DNA of 37,320 nucleotides, from positions 1-37,320 of the IMG/VR virus record IMGVR_UViG_3300005731_000120; one strand, written 5' to 3'. This document shows, one piece after another, positions 2,855-22,300 of this stretch. The notes beneath the pieces were generated by a model. The model was given only the letters and a program-made list of their open reading frames with translations, ran no database searches and was not told the origin of the DNA. How positions within the stretch are numbered: the stretch's first letter is position 1; each line of letters starts with the position of its first letter. The position numbers and the translations under genes were made by a program. The DNA is from a virus.

Positions 2855-3091
2855 TCAGACCACAGGGAACACTCTCTCCCAATGTAGTCGGATCACTTTT
2901 CTCACCCGAAGGTTTTGAAATAATTTCTGGTCGTGAGTCCCATAAGAACCTACTTCACTTGGTCTCAACACAGAACTCTTAATCGACCAACACACTTTAC
3001 CATCTTTGAAATTACCGAGAGTGTATGTGTGAAACTCGTCGTAACACTCCATTACAATATCCTCAGTAATCGCAATATTACCTACTCTCAC
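2855..3091 (-). CDS. Hypothetical protein, 78 aa, last gene of leftward operon
   Basis: Starts at GTG 3091, sharing a GTGA overlap with the stop of the VWA gene upstream, so translation is probably coupled. The product is soluble and mixed in composition, with an acidic N-terminal half (TEDIVMECYDEFHTYTLG) and a basic C-terminus (RVRKVIRLHWERVF). I recognise no domain. Its place directly after the VWA gene suggests a partner, but that is inference from position only. Confidence 0.6.
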   Translation of the reverse strand: MRVGNIAITEDIVMECYDEFHTYTLGNFKDGKVCWSIKSSVLRPSEVGSYGTHDQKLFQNLRVRKVIRLHWERVFPVV

Positions 3092-3714
3092 GACATTAAA
3101 TCCCGTTCTTGGTCAGTGAAACTGGCAACTTCTAAGGATTCCCCTTTAGCAACGGCACTACGTGTACGCCCCAATTTCCAACCAACAACATCGTAGAGTT
3201 TATCCATCTTATCTGTACTATAAGAAGCAATGTCACCTTCGTTAATACCCATTCGAGTACCTTGGAAATCATTTTCGTCCGCACCAAGGAAAGTAAACTG
3301 CCAGCTATATTTCTCTCGCTGTTCAGTAATAATTTTCCTAATCTGAGAGAATGAGTATTCCCTACTATGGTTCTCTTGACCATCTGTGACGATTACAACC
3401 AAAACCAAGTCTGGTCGTTCAGATTGGGACATGTTAGCAAACCGTTCACCTTCTTCGTCAATGGTTGTACCTACAGCGTCCAAGAGTGAGGTCCACCCTC
3501 TGGGTTTCAACTGATACCCCTCGAATTCGTCAATGGGCATTCCTCGACATAAGCACTTAACATCAGTGGAAAATTCCACAAGGGTCAACTCAGTCTCACC
3601 ACTTTCTTTCTTTTGATCTTCAATCAATCGATTGAGACCACCTTCTGCATCGGACTGACATTTGTACATTGATCCACTTCGATCAACAATAACAATTAGA
3701 CTTGTTTTCATCAT
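3088..3714 (-). CDS. VWA-domain protein with complete MIDAS
   Basis: The 208 residues are essentially one von Willebrand factor A domain. The metal-ion-dependent adhesion site is complete: D11-x-S13-x-S15 (DRSGSM), T75 in RGWTSLLDA, and D111 in VIVTDGQENH. VWA domains bind partners through a divalent metal. In bacteria and phages they occur alone or with AAA ATPases, metallopeptidases or TerD-type proteins; none of those is beside it here. The start is ATG 3714, in an ATGA overlap with the zinc-ribbon gene; a GTG at 3720 is the alternative. There is no signal peptide, so the protein is cytoplasmic. Function in this phage is unknown; the domain call is firm. Confidence 0.85.
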   Translation of the reverse strand: MMKTSLIVIVDRSGSMYKCQSDAEGGLNRLIEDQKKESGETELTLVEFSTDVKCLCRGMPIDEFEGYQLKPRGWTSLLDAVGTTIDEEGERFANMSQSERPDLVLVVIVTDGQENHSREYSFSQIRKIITEQREKYSWQFTFLGADENDFQGTRMGINEGDIASYSTDKMDKLYDVVGWKLGRTRSAVAKGESLEVASFTDQERDLMS

Positions 3715-3908
3715 ATACACCCTAAAAAACTTTTACAAAGTTCACAATATCTTAAATCCCAACTAAACCCCGCCTTATCGTAGACAAGTTTGTGTCGGCA
3801 CTTACCACACCGATAGTATGCTTTTTCGCGCGATACTTCGAGCGAAGTAGCAGGTCGAACTGTCGAACCATGACCAGTTGGGTGAGGGATTTCAATATAA
3901 TATGTCAT
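3711..3908 (-). CDS. Small zinc-ribbon protein, 65 aa
   Basis: Start ATG 3908 makes an ATGA overlap with the upstream gene; an ATG at 3920 is possible but unneeded. Two CxxC knuckles (RCGKC near residue 34 and YCELC near 55), about 20 residues apart and separated by a short strand-rich linker, form a typical rubredoxin-like zinc ribbon. Such proteins act as small DNA- or protein-binding adaptors. It is translationally coupled to the VWA gene. No specific role can be assigned. Confidence 0.65.
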   Translation of the reverse strand: MTYYIEIPHPTGHGSTVRPATSLEVSREKAYYRCGKCRHKLVYDKAGFSWDLRYCELCKSFLGCI

Positions 3909-5610: not shown

Positions 5611-5638
5611 ATCCTACCACATTTTTAAGGAAAGTCAA
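5611..5638 (-). promoter_or_regulatory. Internal sigma70-type promoter in leftward operon
   Basis: On the minus strand TTGACT (5638-5633) and TAGGAT (5616-5611) are separated by 16 bases. The -35 box overlaps the stop codon of the HAD-like gene, in one of the few real intergenic gaps of the operon (5546-5634). Just downstream is a possible 15-codon leader peptide (ATG 5604 to TGA 5557), for which the AGGATAGAG overlapping the -10 would instead be a ribosome-binding site. The two readings compete. Confidence 0.4.
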
Positions 5639-6171
5639 GCATTTAATTCATGTAAAATACGAATTTGTTGCTCTAAATGTCCTAAAACATATCTTCCACG
5701 GAGTTCATTGGCTAATTGAGGGACTAAAATCGCTTTACCACCAGCTTCCCGCCACTTTTTTACGTTTCGACCAGAATCATCGATCAAAACAGCGTCTTCT
5801 CGACAATATTTTGTCTTGTTATGTTCAAAAATAGGGTTTTTTGCAAGATGGGGGTAGTTTTCTTGTAACCACACCATCTTCCCTCGCCTAATTTCAATGG
5901 GATTGGAGTACCCGCATGAACTAAGGATCGTTACCGAGTCGAAATGGTAGTGCAATAGACCTACAATCTCATCTGCGAACTCTAATTTTGGTAAAGTCGC
6001 GTATAATTCAGCGTCTTTTACTAATCTCCAGAACAAATCGGCAGAGATACCTTGATCTTGGTAAAAAGTCCAAGAATCCCACTGATCAACCCACTCAGGG
6101 TGTCCAATTTTATTACAAAAACCGGTTATAAAGTCGGCAATGACCCCGTCCATGTCTAAATAAGCGTGCAT
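5635..6171 (-). CDS. HAD-family 5'(3')-deoxyribonucleotidase-like phosphatase
   Basis: The 178-residue length and motif order fit the cytosolic 5'(3')-deoxyribonucleotidase (NT5C-like) group of HAD hydrolases, which dephosphorylate nucleoside monophosphates. Motif I is DMDGVIAD, with nucleophile D6 and acid-base D8. Motif II is TILSS (81-85), motif III is around K119 in HNKTKYC, and motif IV is IDDSGRN (D131, D132). All catalytic residues are present. Start ATG 6171 overlaps the preceding small gene by TAATG. A nucleotidase together with the deaminase at 11208 suggests remodelling of nucleotide pools during infection. The family is firm; the substrate is inferred. Confidence 0.85.
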   Translation of the reverse strand: MHAYLDMDGVIADFITGFCNKIGHPEWVDQWDSWTFYQDQGISADLFWRLVKDAELYATLPKLEFADEIVGLLHYHFDSVTILSSCGYSNPIEIRRGKMVWLQENYPHLAKNPIFEHNKTKYCREDAVLIDDSGRNVKKWREAGGKAILVPQLANELRGRYVLGHLEQQIRILHELNA

Positions 6172-6968: not shown

Positions 6969-7210
6969 TACCATTCTTCCTCTATTCGTTTAATTTTTAA
7001 CTCTCGACCTTCTTTGCCTGCCTTATGTGCGGCTTTTAACATTTCAGGAATGCTATAGATGTCATTAAAGTTCCGGCAAAGACCATTATCTTCAGGTTCT
7101 CCATCACAGAAGGAATACTCTTTATTCCCGATATGGAAATCAATTCGTGATCTTCCATCCCACTCATCTTCGGCAGTCACCACAGTTACTTCAAAATCTG
7201 GTTTACTCAT
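6968..7210 (-). CDS. Hypothetical acidic protein, 80 aa
   Basis: Starts at ATG 7210 in an ATGA overlap with the secreted protease gene. The first half is acidic and strand-forming (FEVTVVTAEDEWDGRSRIDFHIG); the second half is a charged helix (MLKAAHKAGKEGRELKIKRIEEEW). It has no signal peptide, so it would stay in the cytoplasm although its gene is coupled to that of an exported protease. An immunity or inhibitor role is only a guess. Confidence 0.6.
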   Translation of the reverse strand: MSKPDFEVTVVTAEDEWDGRSRIDFHIGNKEYSFCDGEPEDNGLCRNFNDIYSIPEMLKAAHKAGKEGRELKIKRIEEEW

Positions 7211-7845
7211 TCTAAAAATTCCTTAATTTCGTCAATTCGGGGTGATACAATATATTTTACACCATCAACGGTCGAACGTCCACTCTGAATCCCTAATAAT
7301 TTCCTATTTTCTCCAATAATTGCGGCACCAGAGTATCCCATAATGCCCTCACCTTCAAAAAGCATGATATAATGATCACCTTCTCGCATGGCTTTGAACT
7401 TTGGTTTGGATTGATACCTCAACGGTTTCAGATAATTGCCAACGTATCCTTTTGATTCTACATACTGTCGTCCATCTGACAACACTCCCAAATCAATTGG
7501 AGTCACATTGACTACAGCGTTGACTTCAAGCAGCGCTAAATCTTTAAGGTGGTTCAGCCGGACAATTTTAGCGGGGTACGAGTGATATGACGGTTCATCA
7601 CCATAGATACGGACTTGTCTATGAGTACCTTCCATATGCGCACAGGTTAACACCTGAAGCGGGTGTACTGATATGATGACTCCTGAGTGGTAATGATCCT
7701 TATCGTTCAGGACGCGAACGTAGGGACTCTCAGCTAGGGTCAGGGTACTCAAACAGATAAAGAAAACGAATAATATGTTTGGCAACATTCCAACCCAAGA
7801 ATTTTGAGAGGAATTCGATTTCTGCAATTCTCTTATCAGCTTCAT
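7207..7845 (-). CDS. Secreted trypsin-like serine protease
   Basis: The 212 residues form an S1-type (trypsin/chymotrypsin-like, DegP-type catalytic) protease. Numbering from ATG 7845, the triad is H70 (LTCAH), D102 (KDLALLEV) and S172 (GYSGAAI). A hydrophobic segment, ILFVFFICLSTLTLA (24-38), with a plausible signal peptidase site after LTLA, points to export. No PDZ domain follows. ATG 7845 is chosen for its GGGGAG site 9 bases upstream; ATG 7788 would give a shorter signal peptide and ATG 7878 a longer N-terminus. Its first 116 bases overlap the upstream gene. Trypsin-like proteases are rare in phage early regions; targets could be host envelope proteins or incoming phage receptors (inference). 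Confidence 0.8.
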   Translation of the reverse strand: MKLIRELQKSNSSQNSWVGMLPNILFVFFICLSTLTLAESPYVRVLNDKDHYHSGVIISVHPLQVLTCAHMEGTHRQVRIYGDEPSYHSYPAKIVRLNHLKDLALLEVNAVVNVTPIDLGVLSDGRQYVESKGYVGNYLKPLRYQSKPKFKAMREGDHYIMLFEGEGIMGYSGAAIIGENRKLLGIQSGRSTVDGVKYIVSPRIDEIKEFLE

Positions 7846-8119
7846 ATTTACATTCTCCCCAAGTTTGACATTGTTCATAAAAACACACCCATTCCAACCA
7901 TTCGGTCACCTTAGTATCTGTGATTAAACAGTGGGAGATAGGTATTCCATTTTGTGGTATAGGTAACCCCATACGTGCCATCATTGCAGCCACAAAGCAA
8001 AATCCTTGTGGGTAGCTAGTATTTTTGGCACCAACATACTGATACCGATACCCATCGAAATAGTTCGCCGGGTAAGTCTCTGCAAGTTTCTCAGCTTCTT
8101 TCTTCAAATGTTTTGACAT
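7730..8119 (-). CDS. Hypothetical protein, 129 aa
   Basis: Starts at ATG 8119 with AGGGAAG 7 bases upstream. It is soluble: a basic N-terminal helix (KHLKKEAEKLAETY), a central conserved-looking stretch (YPQGFCFVAAMMARMGLPIP), and several cysteines in CFYEQCQTWGEC. It shares 116 bases with the protease gene in another frame, an unusually long overlap for this operon. No family recognised. Confidence 0.6.
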   Translation of the reverse strand: MSKHLKKEAEKLAETYPANYFDGYRYQYVGAKNTSYPQGFCFVAAMMARMGLPIPQNGIPISHCLITDTKVTEWLEWVCFYEQCQTWGECKYEADKRIAEIEFLSKFLGWNVAKHIIRFLYLFEYPDPS

Positions 8120-11091: not shown

Positions 11092-11211
11092 TTAAATGTC
11101 CATGTCTTCGAAGATAAATTCGGCAAGAGCGAGAATCTCAGTATCCTCTAAATTCCAACCTTGCATTTCGTTAAACTGAGAAATTAACGTAACCAGTCGT
11201 GTAATAGTCAT
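11092..11211 (-). CDS. Hypothetical protein, 39 aa
   Basis: ATG 11211 overlaps the deaminase stop by ATGA, and TAA 11092 is one base before the next ATG. The peptide (MTITRLVTLISQFNEMQGW, then an acidic helix LEDTEILALAEFIFEDMDI) is an amphipathic helical hairpin in appearance. It fills the space between two genes exactly, the main reason to accept it. Confidence 0.55.
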   Translation of the reverse strand: MTITRLVTLISQFNEMQGWNLEDTEILALAEFIFEDMDI

Positions 11212-11720
11212 TCTAAAAACTCCAAATATTTAGGGGACCACAGTCGTCCCGAAACTCGTATGGGGTCAACATCGATTGAACCAGAGTAGTATTGTACATT
11301 AACTTTGCCTCTTTTCAAGGAAAGAAGGGCATCATCTACATCATTTTTCCAACGGTCTGGTGTTAAGTCCATTCGTTCCTTATGAACGATAAGGTTGGTA
11401 ATACCAGCACCTTTGATAGCTCTAGCACAACCTATACAAGCTGCCCAAGGGCAAACCATAATCAAACCTTGAGTCGGCACAGGGCAACCATAAATAGCAT
11501 CCCGTTCGGCATGTTCAATATTTCGTAATTTGGTGCCACGGTCAGTTTGATCACTTGAAAAACCCTGATAAAAATGGTTTACACCAATTGAGGCAAGGTT
11601 TGTAACCTCATCGCCCTCTTTAACAAGTACAGCACCATTTTGGCTAGACAGGTCAGGACTGTCTCTCGCAGAATCATAAGCTGTAAACATATAAGATTCG
11701 ATGTCATATTTACTCAACAT
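11208..11720 (-). CDS. dCMP/cytidine deaminase-family protein
   Basis: The 170 residues carry the zinc deaminase signature: H70-A-E72 (EHAERDAIYG) supplies the zinc histidine and catalytic glutamate. C95-x-x-C98 in AACIGCARAIKGAGI supplies the zinc cysteines. The layout matches deoxycytidylate deaminase-like enzymes, which turn dCMP into dUMP to feed dTMP synthesis; substrate is inferred from phage precedent. ATG 11720, 11 bases inside the previous gene, is chosen; the frame extends to 11777. With the HAD nucleotidase it suggests nucleotide salvage or control. No thymidylate synthase is present in the window. Confidence 0.85.
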   Translation of the reverse strand: MLSKYDIESYMFTAYDSARDSPDLSSQNGAVLVKEGDEVTNLASIGVNHFYQGFSSDQTDRGTKLRNIEHAERDAIYGCPVPTQGLIMVCPWAACIGCARAIKGAGITNLIVHKERMDLTPDRWKNDVDDALLSLKRGKVNVQYYSGSIDVDPIRVSGRLWSPKYLEFLE

Positions 11721-12087
11721 TACCGTGTACCCATATATAGTCAAAATTATCACAAGCCTGTTGAGGTGTGTCCCCATAGGCTACAATTTCTTGTCGTTTA
11801 GCTGACTCTGCCCATTCAGGTAGGTCTTCTTCCCCCTCTTCGAAATCAAGTGCCGCAAATTGATTTACTAATTCACATCGATATTTTTTCTCATTAGGGT
11901 CATAAAAAATCACAGTAGGATATCGGAAATGGGGTTGTCCAACTTTTTTTCGTTGTGTATATTCTAATTTTTTAGTTTCGGCTTCATATTTTGCGATTTC
12001 TAAACTAATGGACCTAATATCTAGTTGGAATTGTTCCTCTTCATTACAAAACTTATCTGAATTTTCTTCATCAGAAATCAAATTCAT
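11710..12087 (-). CDS. Hypothetical protein, 125 aa
   Basis: Starts at ATG 12087 with GGAGA 8 bases upstream. The N-terminal half is a charged helix or short coiled coil (DIRSISLEIAKYEAETKKLE). The C-terminal half has a strand-rich part (PTVIFYDPNEKKYRCELV) and ends with AYGDTPQQACDNFDYIWVHG, a pattern seen at the end of several small phage proteins (TPxxAxxNFDxxW). No catalytic motif. Confidence 0.55.
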   Translation of the reverse strand: MNLISDEENSDKFCNEEEQFQLDIRSISLEIAKYEAETKKLEYTQRKKVGQPHFRYPTVIFYDPNEKKYRCELVNQFAALDFEEGEEDLPEWAESAKRQEIVAYGDTPQQACDNFDYIWVHGNVE

Positions 12088-12591: not shown

Positions 12592-12879
12592 CTAATATTT
12601 TCGTTTAGGTTCAAACCACTCAAGATTGGATAAAACATTGTTGTCCGGCTGGTCATCTTTGTGTATACCCCACCTATCACTTTCCCCTTTGAATGCTGTT
12701 AGAACTAATCGATGTACATAATGTCTTTTTTGTACCCCATTTTTTGATAAATGGACATCCATTGTACCTTTCTTAGTCTGGCGTTGTTTAATAATACCTC
12801 GTTTAGATTTGACCCTACCTAACGAACTGACCCAATATAAACCCTCGTAATTGGGTATTTCTACCCATTCTTCGGTCAT
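12592..12879 (-). CDS. NUMOD4-HNH homing-type endonuclease
   Basis: Residues 1-30 (EEWVEIPNYEGLYWVSSLGR) form a NUMOD4 motif. Residues 50-90 contain the HNH core: YVHRLVLTAF, then HKDDQPDNNVLSNLEW, with the H...N...N pattern intact. At 95 residues it is compact, but both halves are complete. Such enzymes nick or cut DNA and usually move themselves between phages. Here it is the first gene of the leftward operon, directly behind the main promoter, with AGGAG 6 bases before ATG 12879. That position could mean insertion between promoter and original first gene (inference). Confidence 0.85.
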   Translation of the reverse strand: MTEEWVEIPNYEGLYWVSSLGRVKSKRGIIKQRQTKKGTMDVHLSKNGVQKRHYVHRLVLTAFKGESDRWGIHKDDQPDNNVLSNLEWFEPKRKY

Positions 12880-13056: not shown

Positions 13057-13623
13057 ATGACAGAACACTGTAGAATAGACGACCCTCGTCGCTGTCATGG
13101 TATCACAGACCACGGTCAGTGCCAAGTATTGGCTGTCGAAAATTCAAACTTCTGCGATAAACATTACAGACAATCACCAAATGGTGGTAGACCCTCGACC
13201 CAATTAAAGAAACAAGAGATTAGACGATACAAATTAGATAATGCTAAACTTCAACAATCTTTAGATCAACAATATCAAGATGATGATTATTTGAATCTAA
13301 AAGATGAAATTCTTTTACTACAGATGTTGGTAAAAGAACGACTTGGAATGATCCGAACAGATGCCGATTTAATTATGGCAGTTGGTCAGGTTAATACCAT
13401 GATTCAACGACTTGAATCAATGAAAGTCGCCCTGTTGAAGATTCAGCAACAGTTGGGTTTTGTTCTGACAAAGGACCAAGTACGAAAACTTGGTATGCAA
13501 TTGGCAGATTTGATGGCGGAAGAATTTCAAGGTGTCGATGATAAAGACGAACGAATCAACAGAGTGTGTATTGGTTTCATCAATGCCATCCAAAACGCAT
13601 CACAAGGTGAACAACATGAGTAG
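13057..13623 (+). CDS. Candidate small terminase subunit with N-terminal zinc motif
   Basis: The 188 residues start with a cysteine/histidine motif, C13, C22, C33 and H36 (RCHGITDHGQCQ ... NFCDKH), common in phage and plasmid DNA-associated proteins. A long helical region follows (LKKQEIRRYKLDNAKLQQSL; DEILLLQMLVKERLGMIRTD) and ends in a helix-rich C-terminus. First gene of the rightward operon, helical oligomer-like design and a DNA-binding N-terminus all suit a terminase small subunit. However, the large subunit lies 3.6 kb downstream and similarity is not decisive. The ribosome-binding site is weak (AGGT). Confidence 0.4.
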   Translation: MTEHCRIDDPRRCHGITDHGQCQVLAVENSNFCDKHYRQSPNGGRPSTQLKKQEIRRYKLDNAKLQQSLDQQYQDDDYLNLKDEILLLQMLVKERLGMIRTDADLIMAVGQVNTMIQRLESMKVALLKIQQQLGFVLTKDQVRKLGMQLADLMAEEFQGVDDKDERINRVCIGFINAIQNASQGEQHE

Positions 13624-13924
13624 CCCCTATGATGGGTTAACACCCAAAAAACCAGAAGGTGAAGATATGTCAGACGACAAAACAGTTGACAAAACAGTTG
13701 ACGAAACAGTTGACAACGCAAAGCCATTAGCAGAATCACGTACTTTTTGGCTCAACCTTGCAACAATCGTTGTTAGTGTTGGTACATATTTGGTTGATAG
13801 TGAGTTGCTATCACAACATCCCGAAGTCGTTGCTATTTTAGGTACGGTTGTTGGTGTAGCTAACATTATTGTTCGTTTAGTTACCGACAAAGGTATCAAA
13901 GAAGTTGTCAACCTCAAAGGATAA
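13616..13924 (+). CDS. Holin-like membrane protein, 102 aa
   Basis: Starts at ATG 13616, overlapping the previous gene by 8 bases. Residues 1-45 are hydrophilic and include a tandem DKTVDKTVDETVDN repeat. Two membrane segments follow: TFWLNLATIVVSVGTYLV and VVAILGTVVGVANIIVRLV, with a basic end (TDKGIKEVVNLKG). Size and topology match phage holins in which a short cytoplasmic head precedes two helices. Holins permeabilise the inner membrane at lysis. Neighbouring exported proteins support a lysis context. Confidence 0.65.
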   Translation: MSSPYDGLTPKKPEGEDMSDDKTVDKTVDETVDNAKPLAESRTFWLNLATIVVSVGTYLVDSELLSQHPEVVAILGTVVGVANIIVRLVTDKGIKEVVNLKG

Positions 13925-13962
13925 ACCACGATATACGTGGGTCAATTAGAGGGAGAACTTCA

Positions 13963-14655
13963 ATGAAATTTTTCAAAACAATTTGTTTGTCGTTTATGCT
14001 GTGTTGTACAGGAGTTGTTGCACAGGATAAGCCAGTAGATAAACCAGTTGTAAAAGCAGAAATCACCATCGACGGTGAAACGGAAGCCAGTGTTGGGGAT
14101 TTAGTTGTATTATCAGTTGAGCAATCAAAAGCCACTTCTTTTAAGTGGATAATGATTCCTGAGAGTGATAATTTCTTAGTTATTGACGATGGTAAGCGGG
14201 CAGTTTTTAGTAGTGGTGTGGGTGGGCAGTTTCAATTTGTTGTAGCTTGCGCCCTTAATGATACATGTGATGTTATTGTACATACACTTGTTATTGATGG
14301 TGAACCCGTAACACCCGTTGATAGTTTAACTCGTAGGTTGAAAGGTTATTGTGATCAGATTGACTCAGCTACGAAAAAAGACGACTGTCTTAAATTAGCT
14401 CAATCTTTTTCAAGTATTGCTTTAATTGCAGATCAAGGTAAACTAACGACAATTGAAGAAATAATCGAGGCAACATTTAACTCGAATCAAGATGCTCTTG
14501 GTAGTAGTCTTGACGACTGGTTGCCTTTTAGAAATGGGTTAGCAACGGAGTTAAAAACCCTCGCTGAAAATGGACAACTACCAGATGTTCAAGCCCATAT
14601 TGACATGTGGAAAAAGATTTCTTCAACACTGAAGGAATACGCTTCCACAATCTAA
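13963..14655 (+). CDS. Secreted PKD/Ig-like protein, 230 aa
   Basis: An N-terminal Sec signal peptide (KFFKTICLSFMLCCTGVVA, cleavage before QD) leads to a beta domain at about residues 30-115. Its core, VGDLVVLSVEQSKATSFKWI followed by FSSGVGGQFQFVVAC, has the spacing of a PKD or Ig-like fold. The remaining 110 residues are helical (YCDQIDSATKKDDCLKLAQSF ..., then WKKISSTLKEYASTI). I know this combination from exported proteins of planctomycetes, but the match is by eye. Strong GAGGGAG site before ATG. It starts the exported cassette. Function unknown; a periplasmic binding or adaptor role fits. Confidence 0.6.
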   Translation: MKFFKTICLSFMLCCTGVVAQDKPVDKPVVKAEITIDGETEASVGDLVVLSVEQSKATSFKWIMIPESDNFLVIDDGKRAVFSSGVGGQFQFVVACALNDTCDVIVHTLVIDGEPVTPVDSLTRRLKGYCDQIDSATKKDDCLKLAQSFSSIALIADQGKLTTIEEIIEATFNSNQDALGSSLDDWLPFRNGLATELKTLAENGQLPDVQAHIDMWKKISSTLKEYASTI

Positions 14656-14669
14656 GTGAGGTTAGGAGA

Positions 14670-15686
14670 ATGGATAGGCGGCAATTCTTAAAAATCGGTG
14701 CTAGTGGTCTAGTAGGATCAATGGTGCCAGCAAAAATTGCACAGTGTGGTTTTGAAACACCTGTTTTTAGTGGTTGGATTCCAGATACAGAAGTTATCAA
14801 CCAAACTCTTCAAAAGTCGGCACGTCCGTATTTTTCGCAGCAAGCACCGCAAACCGTTTTAGGTAGTGGTAAAGGACAGGTTGTCTTGCTCCATAAATAC
14901 CTTGAACGTGCAATTGGTGAAATTGAAGCACATGACCAAACAATTGGTGATTGTGTGGGGCAAGCCTACGCCTTTGGTGTAGATATTCTTGCGGCTACCC
15001 AAATCTATGGATTGGGATTCAAAGAAAAATGGAAAGCCAAGGTAAGTTCCGAGATTGCTTACGGTGGATCGAGATACGAAATTGGTTATCAGGTCCACGG
15101 CAACAAAAGATTACTGACTGGTGATGGAAGTTTAGGTATCTATGGTGCCGAATTCCTCACAGAGTTTGGAACTTTGGCGAGAGATCGGTATGGAAATATC
15201 GATCTCTCCAAATATAATGGGAATACGTCAAAAGAATTTGGTCGAAATGGAATACCAGATGAACTGATTCCCTTAGTTAAAGAACATCCTGTAAAATCAT
15301 TTGCTTTAGTAAATGGTTATGAAGATTGTAGAGATAGTATCTCAAATGGATACCCTGTAATCTTTTGTTCTTCGATTGGGTTTAACCCTAATTGTCGTAA
15401 CCATAATCGAGACGGCAGAGATTCAGAAGGATTTCTAAAGAAGTGTGGTACATGGTATCACGCTATGTGTGGGATTGGAGTCGATGACACACGGAGACCG
15501 GGTATCTTAGTAATGAATAGTTGGGGAAATGATTGGGTATCAGGACCAACTAGGCATGACCAACCCAGAGGTTCATTTTGGGTTGACGCAGACACGATTG
15601 ATTTAATGTGTTCAAGTCGAGATAGTTACACAATCAGTGGATTCATTGGTTTTCCAGCCCAACGAATTGATTACAATTTGTTCTAA
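14670..15686 (+). CDS. Tat-exported papain-like cysteine protease
   Basis: MDRRQFLKIGAS at the N-terminus is a textbook twin-arginine signal. The mature part has the C1A papain layout: C95 in TIGDCVGQAYAF, H264 in TWYHAMCGIGVDD and N283 in VMNSWGNDW, all present and in order. Tat export implies folding in the cytoplasm before translocation. ATG 14670, next to AGGAG, is used rather than the earlier in-frame ATG at 14607. With a holin upstream and a secreted thioredoxin downstream, an envelope-degrading role is plausible, because the cassette has no recognisable muralytic enzyme; that role is inference. Confidence 0.85.
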   Translation: MDRRQFLKIGASGLVGSMVPAKIAQCGFETPVFSGWIPDTEVINQTLQKSARPYFSQQAPQTVLGSGKGQVVLLHKYLERAIGEIEAHDQTIGDCVGQAYAFGVDILAATQIYGLGFKEKWKAKVSSEIAYGGSRYEIGYQVHGNKRLLTGDGSLGIYGAEFLTEFGTLARDRYGNIDLSKYNGNTSKEFGRNGIPDELIPLVKEHPVKSFALVNGYEDCRDSISNGYPVIFCSSIGFNPNCRNHNRDGRDSEGFLKKCGTWYHAMCGIGVDDTRRPGILVMNSWGNDWVSGPTRHDQPRGSFWVDADTIDLMCSSRDSYTISGFIGFPAQRIDYNLF

Positions 15687-15706
15687 TGAAGAGGCAGGAA
15701 AAGGAA

Positions 15707-16384
15707 ATGTATAATGCAATGGTTCATACTGTGGAGAAAATTTGTATCTTGGCAGCGTTCTTTGTTACTCAAGTTAGTTTCGGGCAAGAAGGTCCAGTGG
15801 TTGCTGGAAATAACCAACCTAATCAAGTTAATAAACTTGATGTTAGACAAGGCTGGTTACCCGAAGCTAGAGAGTGGGAAACAAAAACAGCAGAAGGATC
15901 GGAAGCCCAAACAACTATCCGATCCTTACTCTCACTTGGTGATTGGGAACGAAACTTACTCACCCAAGAAAACAAAGTCTCAGCCCAGAAAGTGGAGAAA
16001 GTAAAGAAAGTAAAGTTTGTACCTACCAAAATTAAAGAAGCAGGGGACTCTGATAAAAACTACGCAGTTGTTTTAAGTGCAACATGGTGTGGTCCCTGTA
16101 AAACATTGGAACCGATTGTAGAAGAACTACAAAGGGACGGGTACATTATTTATAAATTTGACACAGATGATAAGAGGTATAGTAAGTTTTTTGATAAAGA
16201 CCACTATGACCTACCGGGGGTGTTACCCACAATCATCTTTGTTGAAAACGGTGTTGTTGAGGATAAAGCTGTAGGACTCCTGAAAAAAGATGTCTTTATG
16301 CAAAAATTAAAGACTCGGTCAGAGCAAGAGCCAAAACCAAAACCATCGCCAAAACCGTCGCCCAATATTTACGATGAGTTATAA
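15707..16384 (+). CDS. Secreted thioredoxin-fold protein
   Basis: A signal peptide (KICILAAFFVTQVSFG) is followed by about 75 residues of linker with a Lys-rich coil (QKVEKVKKVKFVPTKIK) and then a thioredoxin domain. That domain has the active site W127-CGPC131 (SATWCGPCK) and a cis-proline region (GVLPTIIFVENG). The tail is KPKPSPKPSP-rich. Exported thioredoxins reduce disulfides. Beside a cysteine protease it could keep the catalytic thiol reduced or open target disulfides (inference). ATG 15707, preceded by GGAAAAGGA, is preferred; the ATG at 15686 forms TAATG with the protease stop but lacks a site. Confidence 0.85.
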   Translation: MYNAMVHTVEKICILAAFFVTQVSFGQEGPVVAGNNQPNQVNKLDVRQGWLPEAREWETKTAEGSEAQTTIRSLLSLGDWERNLLTQENKVSAQKVEKVKKVKFVPTKIKEAGDSDKNYAVVLSATWCGPCKTLEPIVEELQRDGYIIYKFDTDDKRYSKFFDKDHYDLPGVLPTIIFVENGVVEDKAVGLLKKDVFMQKLKTRSEQEPKPKPSPKPSPNIYDEL

Positions 16385-16386
16385 GT

Positions 16387-16719
16387 ATGGCTAAATTAAG
16401 AAACCGAGACTTAAAGAAGGCACTGGTAAAGGCTTCAGTGAAAGCCGACCAAGATGACTTACTAAAAGACGAAGACTTGATTAAAGCAAATAACCAAGTC
16501 TATAAGTTATTTGGAGACGACCAAGATTTTATTGCCTCAGATGGTAATGGTGTCCCGAAAAATGTAACTTTTCTTACAATGTTTAGAGTAAGACGCTACA
16601 TGAAACGGAAGGGAGTCGAATGGAAACAAATGGACTCGACTTCTATTCTTAACTGGTTGTTAGAGAATTGGGTTGACGTATTAAAAGTTATTATGAGTGT
16701 TCTATTCATTTTCATATGA
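16387..16719 (+). CDS. Small tail-anchored membrane protein, 110 aa
   Basis: Starts at ATG 16387, two bases after the thioredoxin stop. About 85 charged residues (KKALVKASVKADQDDLLKDE ...) precede a C-terminal hydrophobic helix (VLKVIMSVLFIFI) that ends the protein, a tail-anchored topology. It lies between exported proteins and packaging genes. It could recruit or anchor the cassette at the inner membrane, or be an accessory lysis protein. Neither is shown by the sequence. Confidence 0.55.
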   Translation: MAKLRNRDLKKALVKASVKADQDDLLKDEDLIKANNQVYKLFGDDQDFIASDGNGVPKNVTFLTMFRVRRYMKRKGVEWKQMDSTSILNWLLENWVDVLKVIMSVLFIFI

Positions 16720-17216: not shown

Positions 17217-18920
17217 ATGAATCCGATGGTAAACGAATTTCTTGATGCTTTTCAAACAAGTATTGAGAATAGGATTGTTACGGTCCCATCAAAATGGGCA
17301 GAACGTAGACGAGTAATGGGTCACCCTTTTGAGGGTCCATATAGTTTTAAGTATCACCCTTGGTGTCGTGAATTACATGATTCAACGGCATCTTGGAATG
17401 TGTCAATGAAGTCAGCACAGGCTGGATTTACAGAAGTCGGAATCAACCTCGCTTTATACACAGTAGATGTACTTAGGAAAAATGTCCTATATGTTCTGCC
17501 GACTTTGAATAACGCCTCAGATTTTTCTAAAGGTCGATTCAATCCAGCATTGAGTATGAGTCCATACTTAAAAAGTGTTTTCACAGATGCCAATAATGTT
17601 GGACTAAAGATGTCAGGTGACGTTGCTCTTTACATTCGTGGTAGTGGTAGTGATTCTAACCTGAAGTCGATCCCTGTTTCTGTTCTAATTCTCGATGAAT
17701 TAGATGAAATGGATCAATCTCAAATTGAATTGGCTCTACAACGTCTAAGAGGTCAACCTGATAAAAAGGTTTGGTTTATTAGTACGCCAACCGCACCCGG
17801 TCATGGTGTTGCATTAGAATACGAAAATAGCACTCAAGAACATTTTAGATTCAAATGCCCCGGCTGTAACAAAATTGACGAATTCAGATTTCCTGAATCA
17901 ATCAAAATTTGTGGTGAATCGATGAATGACCCCGATTGTTATCGGAGCCATTTTCAATGCACTTTGTGCGGTTATGAATTCAAATTATCACCAGACCCTA
18001 AGACTGGTAAGTTAAGACAATACGAAAAGTTAGATATCTTAACAAACACAGGGTTTTGGGAACCGACTATCAAGGGTACAGACCCCGATAGACGTGGTTT
18101 TAAGATCAATCAGCTTTACAGTTTTACGGTTTCAGCGGGTGAGATTGTTATCGATTATTTCAAATCGTTGACAAACTCATTTGCAAAACAAGAATTTTAT
18201 AAATCAGTTTTAGGTGAACCGTTCGTTGGCGCACAATGCCAAGTCACGGATCAAATGATTCAGAAAGCTATCAAGCCTTATTCATGTAAGGAACTGATAC
18301 CACATGACTCATCCAGAGTTATTACAATGGGTATCGACCGTGGTACATGGTGTCACTTTGTTATCTGTGAATGGTTCTTTCCACCTAATTTTACTGACTT
18401 AAATAATTCAGCACATTGTAAGGTCTTAGATGCTGGTGTCTTCCATGAGGAAGATTTACAAATGTTTGCAGGTCGTTTGATGCAAGAGTGGCAAGTACAT
18501 GCTTGTCATATTGATGCAGACCCCGGTAGACAAGAAGCCAGACGTTTTGCCAGAGAGTTCCCACGGTTTGTGTGGATGAACCAGTATAGGCAAGGTCGGA
18601 CAGGTAAGGAAATTACTATTGATGATGATGGGACAAACGCCCCTATCGCAACAGTAGATAGAACTAACTGGTTAGATATTTCATTAGGTCGATTCTACGC
18701 AGGTACTATTGATTTACCAAATGATTTACCTGCTGGATTCGCATCACATATCAAGAATTTGATTCGTGTATACGAAATGGATAAACAAGGTAACCCTGTT
18801 GCCATGTATAAGAACCATAACAAGGATGACCACTACGCCCATGCGTTAAACTACGCTGAGGTAGCATTACCTTGTGCTGTTTCAAATGCCCAAGGATGTA
18901 ACATCGAAAAACTATTATAA
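17217..18920 (+). CDS. terL: Terminase large subunit (lambda GpA-type)
   Basis: The packaging motor ATPase-nuclease. The ATPase part has a deviant Walker A (SMKSAQAGFTE, near 63-73), a Walker B with catalytic glutamate (VLILDELDE, 156-164) and a coupling motif (ISTPT, 188-192). A zinc-like insertion (CPGC at 214-217, CTLC at 248-251) is typical of the GpA family. The nuclease domain follows (TMGIDRGTWCHFVICEW; CHIDADPG). 567 residues is normal for the group. GGAG lies 8 bases before ATG 17217. GpA-type terminases often cut at specific cos sites, so the repeats or hairpins elsewhere in the window could include its binding site (inference). Confidence 0.95.
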   Translation: MNPMVNEFLDAFQTSIENRIVTVPSKWAERRRVMGHPFEGPYSFKYHPWCRELHDSTASWNVSMKSAQAGFTEVGINLALYTVDVLRKNVLYVLPTLNNASDFSKGRFNPALSMSPYLKSVFTDANNVGLKMSGDVALYIRGSGSDSNLKSIPVSVLILDELDEMDQSQIELALQRLRGQPDKKVWFISTPTAPGHGVALEYENSTQEHFRFKCPGCNKIDEFRFPESIKICGESMNDPDCYRSHFQCTLCGYEFKLSPDPKTGKLRQYEKLDILTNTGFWEPTIKGTDPDRRGFKINQLYSFTVSAGEIVIDYFKSLTNSFAKQEFYKSVLGEPFVGAQCQVTDQMIQKAIKPYSCKELIPHDSSRVITMGIDRGTWCHFVICEWFFPPNFTDLNNSAHCKVLDAGVFHEEDLQMFAGRLMQEWQVHACHIDADPGRQEARRFAREFPRFVWMNQYRQGRTGKEITIDDDGTNAPIATVDRTNWLDISLGRFYAGTIDLPNDLPAGFASHIKNLIRVYEMDKQGNPVAMYKNHNKDDHYAHALNYAEVALPCAVSNAQGCNIEKLL

Positions 18921-20512: not shown

Positions 20513-22300
20513 ATGTCAATTATTGACACAAGACATCCAGACTATCTCTATAGTTTACCAGACTGGAGTATCTGGAGAGATATATGGGATGGTGGTGATA
20601 CTTTTGTACGACGGTATCTTGAAAAATGGTCAGAACGTGAATCAATAGTTGACTTTGAACGACGACGTAATATTACTCCTGTACCCGGCTTTGCAAAAGC
20701 TGCGTTAGTAGATATCAAAAACTCAGTCTTTAATAGAATGAGTGATATTTCTCGGCGGGGCGGCACCATAAGTTATGGTAAAGCAATTGCAGGTGAAGCA
20801 GGGGGTGTAGATCGCCGTGGTTCAAGTATGAATCACTTTATTGGTACAGAGATTCTACCTGAAATGCTATCGATGGGGCGGATTGGGGTATATGTAGATA
20901 ACATTGCACCACCGGGTCCAACACTGGCAGATGCAAGGAATGCCACACCTTATCTTTACACTTACCGTGTCGAAGATATTTTATCTTGGCAACGAGCAAG
21001 ACCCGAAGATGATAGTGATTTCAATGCTATTCTATTAAGAGATTGGTGTATTAAATACGAAACATCTTTCGGAAAGGTTCAACTACCTAAAGAGCAATAT
21101 GAACGATATCGACTTGTCTGGAAAGACGACGATGGTTTTGTCTATTATCAGTTCTTTAGTTCCGCTGGTGATCCAATTTTACCAGATGGGACACCGGGTG
21201 GTGATCCAGTTAAACTGAATATTAAACGTATACCTTTTGTAATGTTTGATATTGAGACCAGTTTACTTAAAGATATTGCGAAACACCAAATTGCGTTATT
21301 GAATCTTGCATCAAGTGATATTTCATACGCATTGAAAGCTAACTTCCCTTTTTATGTGGAACAAGGCGACACACGTGGGATGGGTGGTCACTTAAAAACT
21401 GCTGTATCAGAAGATGGTACATCGAGTACAGGCGGTCAACAATCTGCGGATAAAGAAATAAAAGTTGGTACACTAGACGGTCGTTTATATGACACTAGCG
21501 TATCTAATGCTCCTCAATTCATTAACCCTTCTAGTGAACCACTCGAAGCGTCTATGAAACTTCAAGAGAAGCTAGAAAATGATATTCGTAAATTAGTCAA
21601 CTTAGCTGTTGTCTCATTAGGAAATTCACGTGCTTCAGGTGAAGCCAAACAAATGGATAACCAAGGTCTTGAATCTGGTTTAGCATTTATTGGTCTTGTC
21701 CTTGAAAGTGGTGAAAAGAAAATTGCAGACTTCTGGTCAGCTTACGAAGGTAATGATAGTCGAGATACCGTCATTATCAAATACCCTGACCAATATCGTG
21801 TCAAGTCAAAGACTGAACGAATTGAAGAAGCTGAGAAACTAACCAAACTAATCTTTAGCTTACCTAGTATCTCTGCAAAGAAAGAACTTTGTAAAGATGC
21901 CGCTAGTTCTTTGTTAGGTGGTCGAGTGACTACCGAGAAAATGTCTGAAATCCATAAGGAAATCGATAAGGCTAGTTATGCCACAAGTGATCCTACTGTG
22001 ATTGAAATGGCGAAAGAACAGGGTTTAGCTAGTGATGTGACATTATCTAATGCTCTCGGCTTTAATGGAGAAGTAGAAATCCCTAAAGCTAGAGAAGATC
22101 ATGCTTTAAGAGTCGAGACTATCCAAGCTGCTCAATCTTCTGAAAAAATAGATGCAGGGGCTAGAGGGGTAAAGGATATGTCGGTTGATAAAAAAGCTGG
22201 TAAGAAAGAAAAAGAACAGGCAAGGAATACCGACCTTGAAGACTCAACAAAGAGTCGAGAAAGGGGTAAAACGCGAGCCTCTAAAAAATCAGGTGAATAA
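20513..22300 (+). CDS. Portal protein (DUF4055-like)
   Basis: The 595 residues show the layout of siphophage portals resembling the DUF4055 family: YLYSLPDWSIWRDIWDGGDT near the start, LPEMLSMGRIGVYVD and YLYTYRVEDILSW in the wing region, a long helical stem (LEASMKLQEKLENDIRKLVN), and a charged C-terminal tail (KAGKKEKEQARNTDLEDS). The dodecameric portal forms the DNA channel at one capsid vertex and docks the terminase. Position between head genes and scaffold/coat supports it. Stop overlaps the next ATG by TAATG. Confidence 0.85.
   Translation: MSIIDTRHPDYLYSLPDWSIWRDIWDGGDTFVRRYLEKWSERESIVDFERRRNITPVPGFAKAALVDIKNSVFNRMSDISRRGGTISYGKAIAGEAGGVDRRGSSMNHFIGTEILPEMLSMGRIGVYVDNIAPPGPTLADARNATPYLYTYRVEDILSWQRARPEDDSDFNAILLRDWCIKYETSFGKVQLPKEQYERYRLVWKDDDGFVYYQFFSSAGDPILPDGTPGGDPVKLNIKRIPFVMFDIETSLLKDIAKHQIALLNLASSDISYALKANFPFYVEQGDTRGMGGHLKTAVSEDGTSSTGGQQSADKEIKVGTLDGRLYDTSVSNAPQFINPSSEPLEASMKLQEKLENDIRKLVNLAVVSLGNSRASGEAKQMDNQGLESGLAFIGLVLESGEKKIADFWSAYEGNDSRDTVIIKYPDQYRVKSKTERIEEAEKLTKLIFSLPSISAKKELCKDAASSLLGGRVTTEKMSEIHKEIDKASYATSDPTVIEMAKEQGLASDVTLSNALGFNGEVEIPKAREDHALRVETIQAAQSSEKIDAGARGVKDMSVDKKAGKKEKEQARNTDLEDSTKSRERGKTRASKKSGE

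Follow-up and report, generated by a model that had tools for sequence, protein, structure and literature searches.

The virus record IMGVR_UViG_3300005731_000120, analyzed here over its 37,320 bases (hereafter, the window) and probably a genome fragment, encodes tailed-phage proteins (TerL, a P22-type coat protein and a tape-measure protein) along with a compact cassette of five genes, including one for a papain-like cysteine protease. As described in an earlier note on this DNA, all five open reading frames are located on the plus strand, adjacent to or overlapping each other, between a conserved gene at 13057-13623 and TerL (17217):

13616-13924, plus strand: holin-like protein of 102 amino acids with two transmembrane segments and a weak match to DUF7940 (E 0.007-0.013)
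13963-14655, plus strand: protein with a Sec signal, an Ig/PKD-like domain and a four-helix C-terminal domain (predicted local distance difference test score, pLDDT, of the AlphaFold model 90.9)
14670-15686, plus strand: papain-like cysteine protease of the C1 type, 338 amino acids, with a twin-arginine N-terminal signal (MDRRQFLKIGASGLVGSMVPAKIA)
15686-16384, plus strand: thioredoxin with an N-terminal signal or hydrophobic segment and the WCGPC motif at 16085-16099
16387-16719, plus strand: tail-anchored small membrane protein with the C-terminal tail WLLENWVDVLKVIMSVLFIFI, conserved in relatives

Each of the five descriptions given in the earlier note was borne out. Homologues of the holin-like protein with its two transmembrane segments are encoded in the same position in other loci (L002-L005, L013 and L030). 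In the secreted protein, the AlphaFold model contains the Ig/PKD sandwich, for which the best PDB match is the PKD domain of the collagenase ColG (E 1.3e-4), and additionally the four-helix C-terminal domain, on which the earlier note is silent. The open reading frame of this protein ends (14655) just ahead of the true start of the papain gene, which is 14670 and not the GTG at 14607 of the listed open reading frame, given that the relatives align from M(DRRQF); when numbered from 14670, the residues C95, H264 and N283 of the twin-arginine translocation (Tat) signal-containing papain are exact, and the Pfam TAT_signal family gives a sub-threshold match (E 0.042). The thioredoxin matches PF00085 with an E value of 1.6e-9 (38.1 bits against a cut-off of 23.5). 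In many relatives, the interval from the thioredoxin to TerL encodes similar tail-anchored proteins (clusters 5 and 58); in about a dozen relatives, it encodes a membrane protein that resembles DUF1360 and contains a CPYCLSHW motif (L018:1704-2018, cluster 20). The protease has as neighbors small membrane proteins, two-transmembrane and tail-anchored, that on the strength of sequence features are predicted to be holin-like or spanin-like.

The active site of the papain is nearly invariant in an alignment of 66 family members:

14937-14939, plus strand: Q90, equivalent of the oxyanion-hole glutamine, kept in 66 of 66 papains
14952-14954, plus strand: C95, catalytic cysteine, kept in 66 of 66, and the intein insertion point in several relatives
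15459-15461, plus strand: H264, catalytic histidine, kept in 66 of 66
15516-15518, plus strand: N283 of the NSWG motif, equivalent of the catalytic asparagine, N in 63 and Q in 3 of 66

The glutamine, cysteine and histidine are also retained in 14 of 14 aligned papain copies carried by planctomycetes. The AlphaFold model of the papain (pLDDT 90.5, predicted template modeling score 0.88) adopts the C1 papain fold; in a Foldseek search, the top PDB match was xylellain (3ois, E 1.5e-10, TM-score 0.59/0.73), followed by cathepsins and papain, and the 50 PDB matches listed were all C1-type proteases. The window papain shares with the C1 peptidases the Gln-Cys-His-Asn order and the NSWG motif but differs from xylellain and its relatives in its low identity (16%), a score below the PF00112 cut-off, the lack of a recognized propeptide domain, the Tat signal and the phage context. 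Searches with the single papain sequence against PHROGs and, with phmmer, against PDB yielded nothing useful, and Pfam hmmscan detected no PF00112 match in the window papain, with relatives reaching 12-18 bits against the cut-off of 20.7; because the proteins fall below the Pfam threshold for C1 proteases, we consider them a divergent C1-like family. The alignment profile of the papains does reach C1 proteases in PDB (best E 7e-4). Viral structure libraries contain other uncharacterized phage C1 proteins with 14-18% identity to the papain; for example, the Peptidase_C1-domain proteins of uncultured Caudovirales in BFVD (such as A0A6J5TCZ4), compared by fold, share the phage-borne C1 fold (E 3e-10) but are 18% identical and have no assigned function. 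Judging from the sequence and the model, the papain is a C1-type cysteine protease fold with an intact active site, and proteolytic activity is predicted.

The fold bears on an alternative under which the enzyme is an endolysin that cleaves the peptide cross-links of peptidoglycan, similarly to CHAP and NlpC/P60 enzymes and the pseudomurein endoisopeptidases, with wall proteins being irrelevant. Some peptidoglycan hydrolases and phage lysins indeed have papain-like folds (PMC10318531), and mycobacteriophage Lysin A matches the model weakly and in part (E 9e-4). The structures that match the model best, however, belong to true C1 proteases (xylellain and cathepsins); the window papain has no CHAP, NlpC or C71 match in Pfam, and no peptidoglycan-binding domain was seen in it. 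The CHAP and NlpC/P60 endolysins belong to the papain-like superfamily and are used in phage lysis, the role proposed here for the window papain, but they represent different peptidase families that act on peptidoglycan. In PeiW and PeiP (family C71) of methanogen phages, a papain-like enzyme acts on a non-murein wall, as the window papain would, according to work cited in PMC10318531. These enzymes differ from the window papain in family, with no C71 match in the hmmscan against Pfam-A, and in the wall that they attack. To our knowledge, PeiW and PeiP have no thioredoxin partner.

Conservation of the cassette in relatives had been set beforehand as a test, and the gene order is kept in both close and distant phages. 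When the 42 loci that encode TerL relatives of the window were searched with each cassette protein, the papain was found in 25, the thioredoxin in 19 and the Ig protein in 16, and the order secreted protein-papain-thioredoxin upstream of TerL was identical wherever several of these genes were present. An alignment-based scan identified the papain in at least 567 stretches of IMG/VR from several phage lineages. Comparison of gene neighborhoods at 99 loci (98 for the thioredoxin and signal counts) showed that the papain occurs in several unrelated phage backgrounds, adjoining TerL in the window lineage and other gene sets in larger phages. A thioredoxin is encoded nearby in 63 of the 98 loci, and 53 of these 63 thioredoxins have an N-terminal hydrophobic segment by a simple hydrophobicity rule. 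Small transmembrane genes are frequent around the papain, and its combination with thioredoxin and holin-like neighbors recurs in unrelated phages. In 39 loci, the gene immediately preceding the papain encodes a relative of the secreted Ig protein, and in 74 an Ig/helical or small anchored protein is encoded there (three clusters, of which two, 7 and 16, are demonstrably related, with an hhalign probability of 85%). Homology of the helical domain of the window Ig protein to clusters 7 and 16 could not be established (hhalign probability 3%). By tblastn with seven different queries, no papain relative was detected in 50,697 deposited phage records.

The cassette might be an accidental assembly of unrelated passenger genes, as both thioredoxins and exported proteases are frequent cargo. 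Because dozens of distant loci show this gene order, and because Q90, C95 and H264 are invariant in all 66 aligned papains, the association appears to be more than chance; the conserved synteny already contradicts this explanation, which we regard as highly improbable.

The N-termini of the papains are variable. A Tat-like signal (an RR motif followed by a hydrophobic stretch) is present in at least 34 of the 98 papains, about half have no signal, and a few contain a transmembrane anchor. This variation resembles that of endolysins, which can be cytoplasmic, secreted or anchored; an N-terminal export signal, here RR-containing and Tat-like in the window and at least 33 relatives, is shared with the exported, signal-bearing endolysins. 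In several papains, an in-frame intein-like insertion is placed such that the catalytic Cys95 is the +1 extein residue (L027, L031/L033, L115-L117, L121, L125 and L135), and an insertion of the same kind directly follows the NSWG motif in L030, L125 and L135, the latter two genes containing both. Pfam recognizes Intein_splicing and LAGLIDADG in L027 and LAGLIDADG in L030 (the intein-bearing genes include L027:3048-5216, L033:2-2149 and L030:5845-7878). Splicing would have to precede papain activity and, in the Tat lineages, probably also export.

The earlier note had seen no muralytic signature and had named an endolysin elsewhere in the genome as the finding that would count against its proposal. 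In the Pfam scans, which covered most of the window genes, no such signature was found, and no endolysin was detected in 24 related records, in the plasmid pPLIM01 or in the G309 prophage. In the 24 records (2.58 Mb), there was no match to Amidase_2, GH24 lysozyme or M15 peptidase above the cut-off; sub-threshold Amidase_2 and M15 matches were judged to be due to chance. No muralytic family is among the 25 Pfam families of pPLIM01, all of them listed, or the 19 of the G309 prophage. The 128-kb and 125-kb relatives (G420 and G422) also showed no muralytic Pfam family among the matches listed, which leave out the 12 and 2 weakest families, respectively, and their gene calls are incomplete; the scan of the G325 prophage, with 25 of 51 families listed, carries little weight. 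Because the other records are fragments or incompletely called, only pPLIM01 and the G309 prophage provide strong evidence that an endolysin is lacking.

The uncultured phages that carry the papain most likely infect planctomycetes. A profile built from a set of closer papains had four matches in a scan of 84,980 species: three in Planctomycetota and one in a phage contig binned in a metagenome-assembled genome (MAG) of Anaerolinea. The latter contig (L149, DYKV01000066.1, 10797 bases) encodes the complete cassette, with a papain 54% identical to that of the window, and its placement in the Anaerolinea MAG is probably a binning artifact. Among 392 Planctomycetota genomes, 13 contain strong papain matches and 40 encode YTV, a domain found in cysteine-rich wall proteins of planctomycetes; the 13 carriers all belong to these 40 (hypergeometric p 1.8e-14, n=392). 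When these 13 and two carriers from the 84,980-species scan were compared with 20 non-carriers, YTV was present in 14 of the 15 carriers and none of the non-carriers, and the penicillin-binding protein (PBP) transpeptidase domain PF00905 was absent from 7 of the 15 carriers and none of the non-carriers. Host assignment through TerL failed, as the planctomycete TerL relatives are only distant and belong to YTV-negative genomes. GpA-TerL prophages were found in 17 such genomes, with no strong papain match there; their only use here is to confirm that prophages can be detected in such genomes in the absence of the papain.

Planctomycete walls have been described as consisting mainly of protein, including cysteine-rich YTV proteins (PMC8567305). 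In Planctopirus limnophila, most of the peptidoglycan-synthesis genes are dispensable and a YTV-domain gene is essential (PMC10632474). If a host can do without peptidoglycan, an ordinary endolysin may not be enough to lyse it. These observations return us to the possibility that the papain cleaves peptidoglycan. Peptidoglycan has also been reported in Planctomycetia, as cited in PMC10632474, and PBP transpeptidases are kept in half of the carrier genomes; conversely, PF00905 is missing in 7 of 15 carriers and most peptidoglycan genes can be lost in P. limnophila (PMC10632474). Combined with the fold evidence, these data lead us to consider a peptidoglycan-cutting papain unlikely.

One of the carrier contigs is pPLIM01 of P. 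limnophila DSM 3776 (L242, NC_014149.1, 1-37010; 37,010 bases), a circular phage-plasmid that encodes integrases, a ParB-like protein, TerL, portal, a ClpP-type head protease, an HK97-type capsid and tail proteins. Its papain gene, PLIM_RS21800, annotated as hypothetical, lies shortly before the terminase gene and follows a gene for a membrane protein. A second copy resides in a prophage on the P. limnophila chromosome (G347). In three chromosomal loci of about 19 kb each (L172, L173 and L174), the papain is near terminase-like genes, with the same U32-peptidase-like flanking gene in L173 and L174; these are candidate cryptic prophages or gene-transfer-agent-like elements. Three more planctomycete chromosomal regions (L150:10001-10891, L151 and L152) contain a papain homologue in partly conserved surroundings with no recognizable phage genes.

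The location next to terminase genes, and the lack of any signal in some copies, would be compatible with the papain being a virion component or an assembly protease, involved either in head maturation or, as an entry enzyme, in crossing the envelope. The Tat, Sec and transmembrane N-termini of other copies argue against such a role, and pPLIM01 possesses its own ClpP-type head protease. The coat of the window phage is of the P22 type, a family that as a rule needs no maturation protease. We accordingly deem a virion function improbable. Alternatively, instead of lysing the host, the papain could act in host takeover or surface remodeling during infection, such as receptor stripping, superinfection exclusion or the control of proteins in the host envelope. 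The export or anchoring of the protease, the chromosomal homologues without visible phage genes, and the possibility that the thioredoxin serves oxidative folding or redox control are in line with this explanation. Against it, the papain is closely associated with holin-like and tail-anchored genes beside the packaging genes, and no other lysis enzyme was found in the scanned genomes of pPLIM01 and the G309 prophage, and we consider such a role unlikely.

The comparative evidence is best accommodated, with a probability that we put at about 0.5, by the cassette being a module for host lysis that relies on a papain-type protease in place of the peptidoglycan-cutting endolysin. The support consists of the conserved gene order, the C1 fold with its catalytic residues, the N-terminal signals, the link to planctomycete hosts and the lack of a recognized endolysin in the genomes that were scanned. 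The presence of the papain cassette in the endolysin's place suggests that hosts with cysteine-rich protein walls may be opened by protein digestion. We infer that, in the window lineage, the protease would be exported, already folded, by the Tat pathway, whereas in other lineages a signal-less protease would be released through holin-like pores or would be membrane-anchored; it would then cut the cysteine-rich protein wall, with its YTV-type proteins, of the planctomycete host. The co-encoded, usually exported thioredoxin might open disulfides in the wall or keep the protease thiol reduced, and the product of the gene immediately upstream, the secreted Ig/helical protein, most likely serves as the cognate partner of the protease, perhaps a tether, a timing factor or an inhibitor. 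Exported trypsin-like proteases encoded near the papain in five loci (L003, L088, L089, L100 and L114), and also elsewhere in the window, would fit such proteolytic attack. The broader proposition, that planctomycete phages of a widespread class dispense with a peptidoglycan hydrolase in host lysis, the papain and the exported thioredoxin together dissolving a disulfide-linked, cysteine-rich wall, is more tentative, and we place it somewhat below even odds.

Several observations weigh against a lytic protease. The viral records may be incomplete, and Pfam scans would miss an endolysin of an unknown family. In L029, L034 and L037, tblastn detected no papain next to TerL. The association with YTV is confounded by shared ancestry because YTV is confined to the class Planctomycetia (PMC10632474), so that the host range of the papain is fixed more firmly than its substrate, and the carriers mostly encode divergent papains without a Tat signal. 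For the window phage itself, a planctomycete is only the most likely host. On three planctomycete chromosomes (G024-G026), the papain is found without visible phage genes and may therefore have a cellular role. Finally, across the 98 loci, the thioredoxin was not found in about one-third, and a Tat signal was recognized in only about one-third of the papains. The earlier proposal of proteolytic envelope lysis assisted by thioredoxin thus holds in part: the cassette is conserved, endolysins were not found in the genomes scanned and the strong carriers overlap completely with YTV hosts, but Tat export and the thioredoxin are not general and hence not essential to the system.

Like the canonical holin-endolysin cassettes, the module is a compact block that combines small transmembrane proteins with a single hydrolase, in this case next to the packaging genes; it differs in that the predicted hydrolase is a protease rather than a muralytic enzyme, in the addition of a thioredoxin and an Ig/helical partner, and in Tat export in the window lineage. 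A literature search of incomplete coverage yielded no description of such a lysis system, and in the literature searched no reductive-proteolytic lysis mechanism was described for any phage.

The remaining recognizable genes of the window include the following:

7207-7878, minus strand: putative exported trypsin-like protease (PF13365; Trypsin_2, E 1.5e-7) with a hydrophobic N-terminal segment
13057-13623, plus strand: conserved gene of 188 amino acids, left flank of the cassette
17217-18920: TerL of the GpA type, right flank of the cassette
20513-22300: large conserved protein
from 24185: P22-type coat protein
from 29085: tape-measure protein

The trypsin-like protease, which belongs to a leftward gene cluster outside the cassette, is possibly accessory. 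The same cluster contains candidate genes, with families from Pfam and gene assignment by sequence inspection, for a NUMOD4/HNH endonuclease (12592-12879), a dCMP deaminase (11208-11777), a deoxyribonucleotidase-like protein (5635-6171) and a VWA-like protein (3088-3720), all on the minus strand.

Phage lysis is generally taught as the destruction of peptidoglycan, and in many planctomycetes peptidoglycan is scarce or dispensable and the wall is rich in cysteine-rich proteins; the literature searched offered no account of how planctomycete phages exit their hosts. The cassette described here is a concrete candidate answer, represented in the genetically tractable Planctopirus limnophila as well as on hundreds of contigs from uncultured phages. 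If this proposal is correct, the cassette enzymes could be used to probe the disputed planctomycete wall, and the papain would be a marker for assigning uncultured phages to planctomycete hosts.

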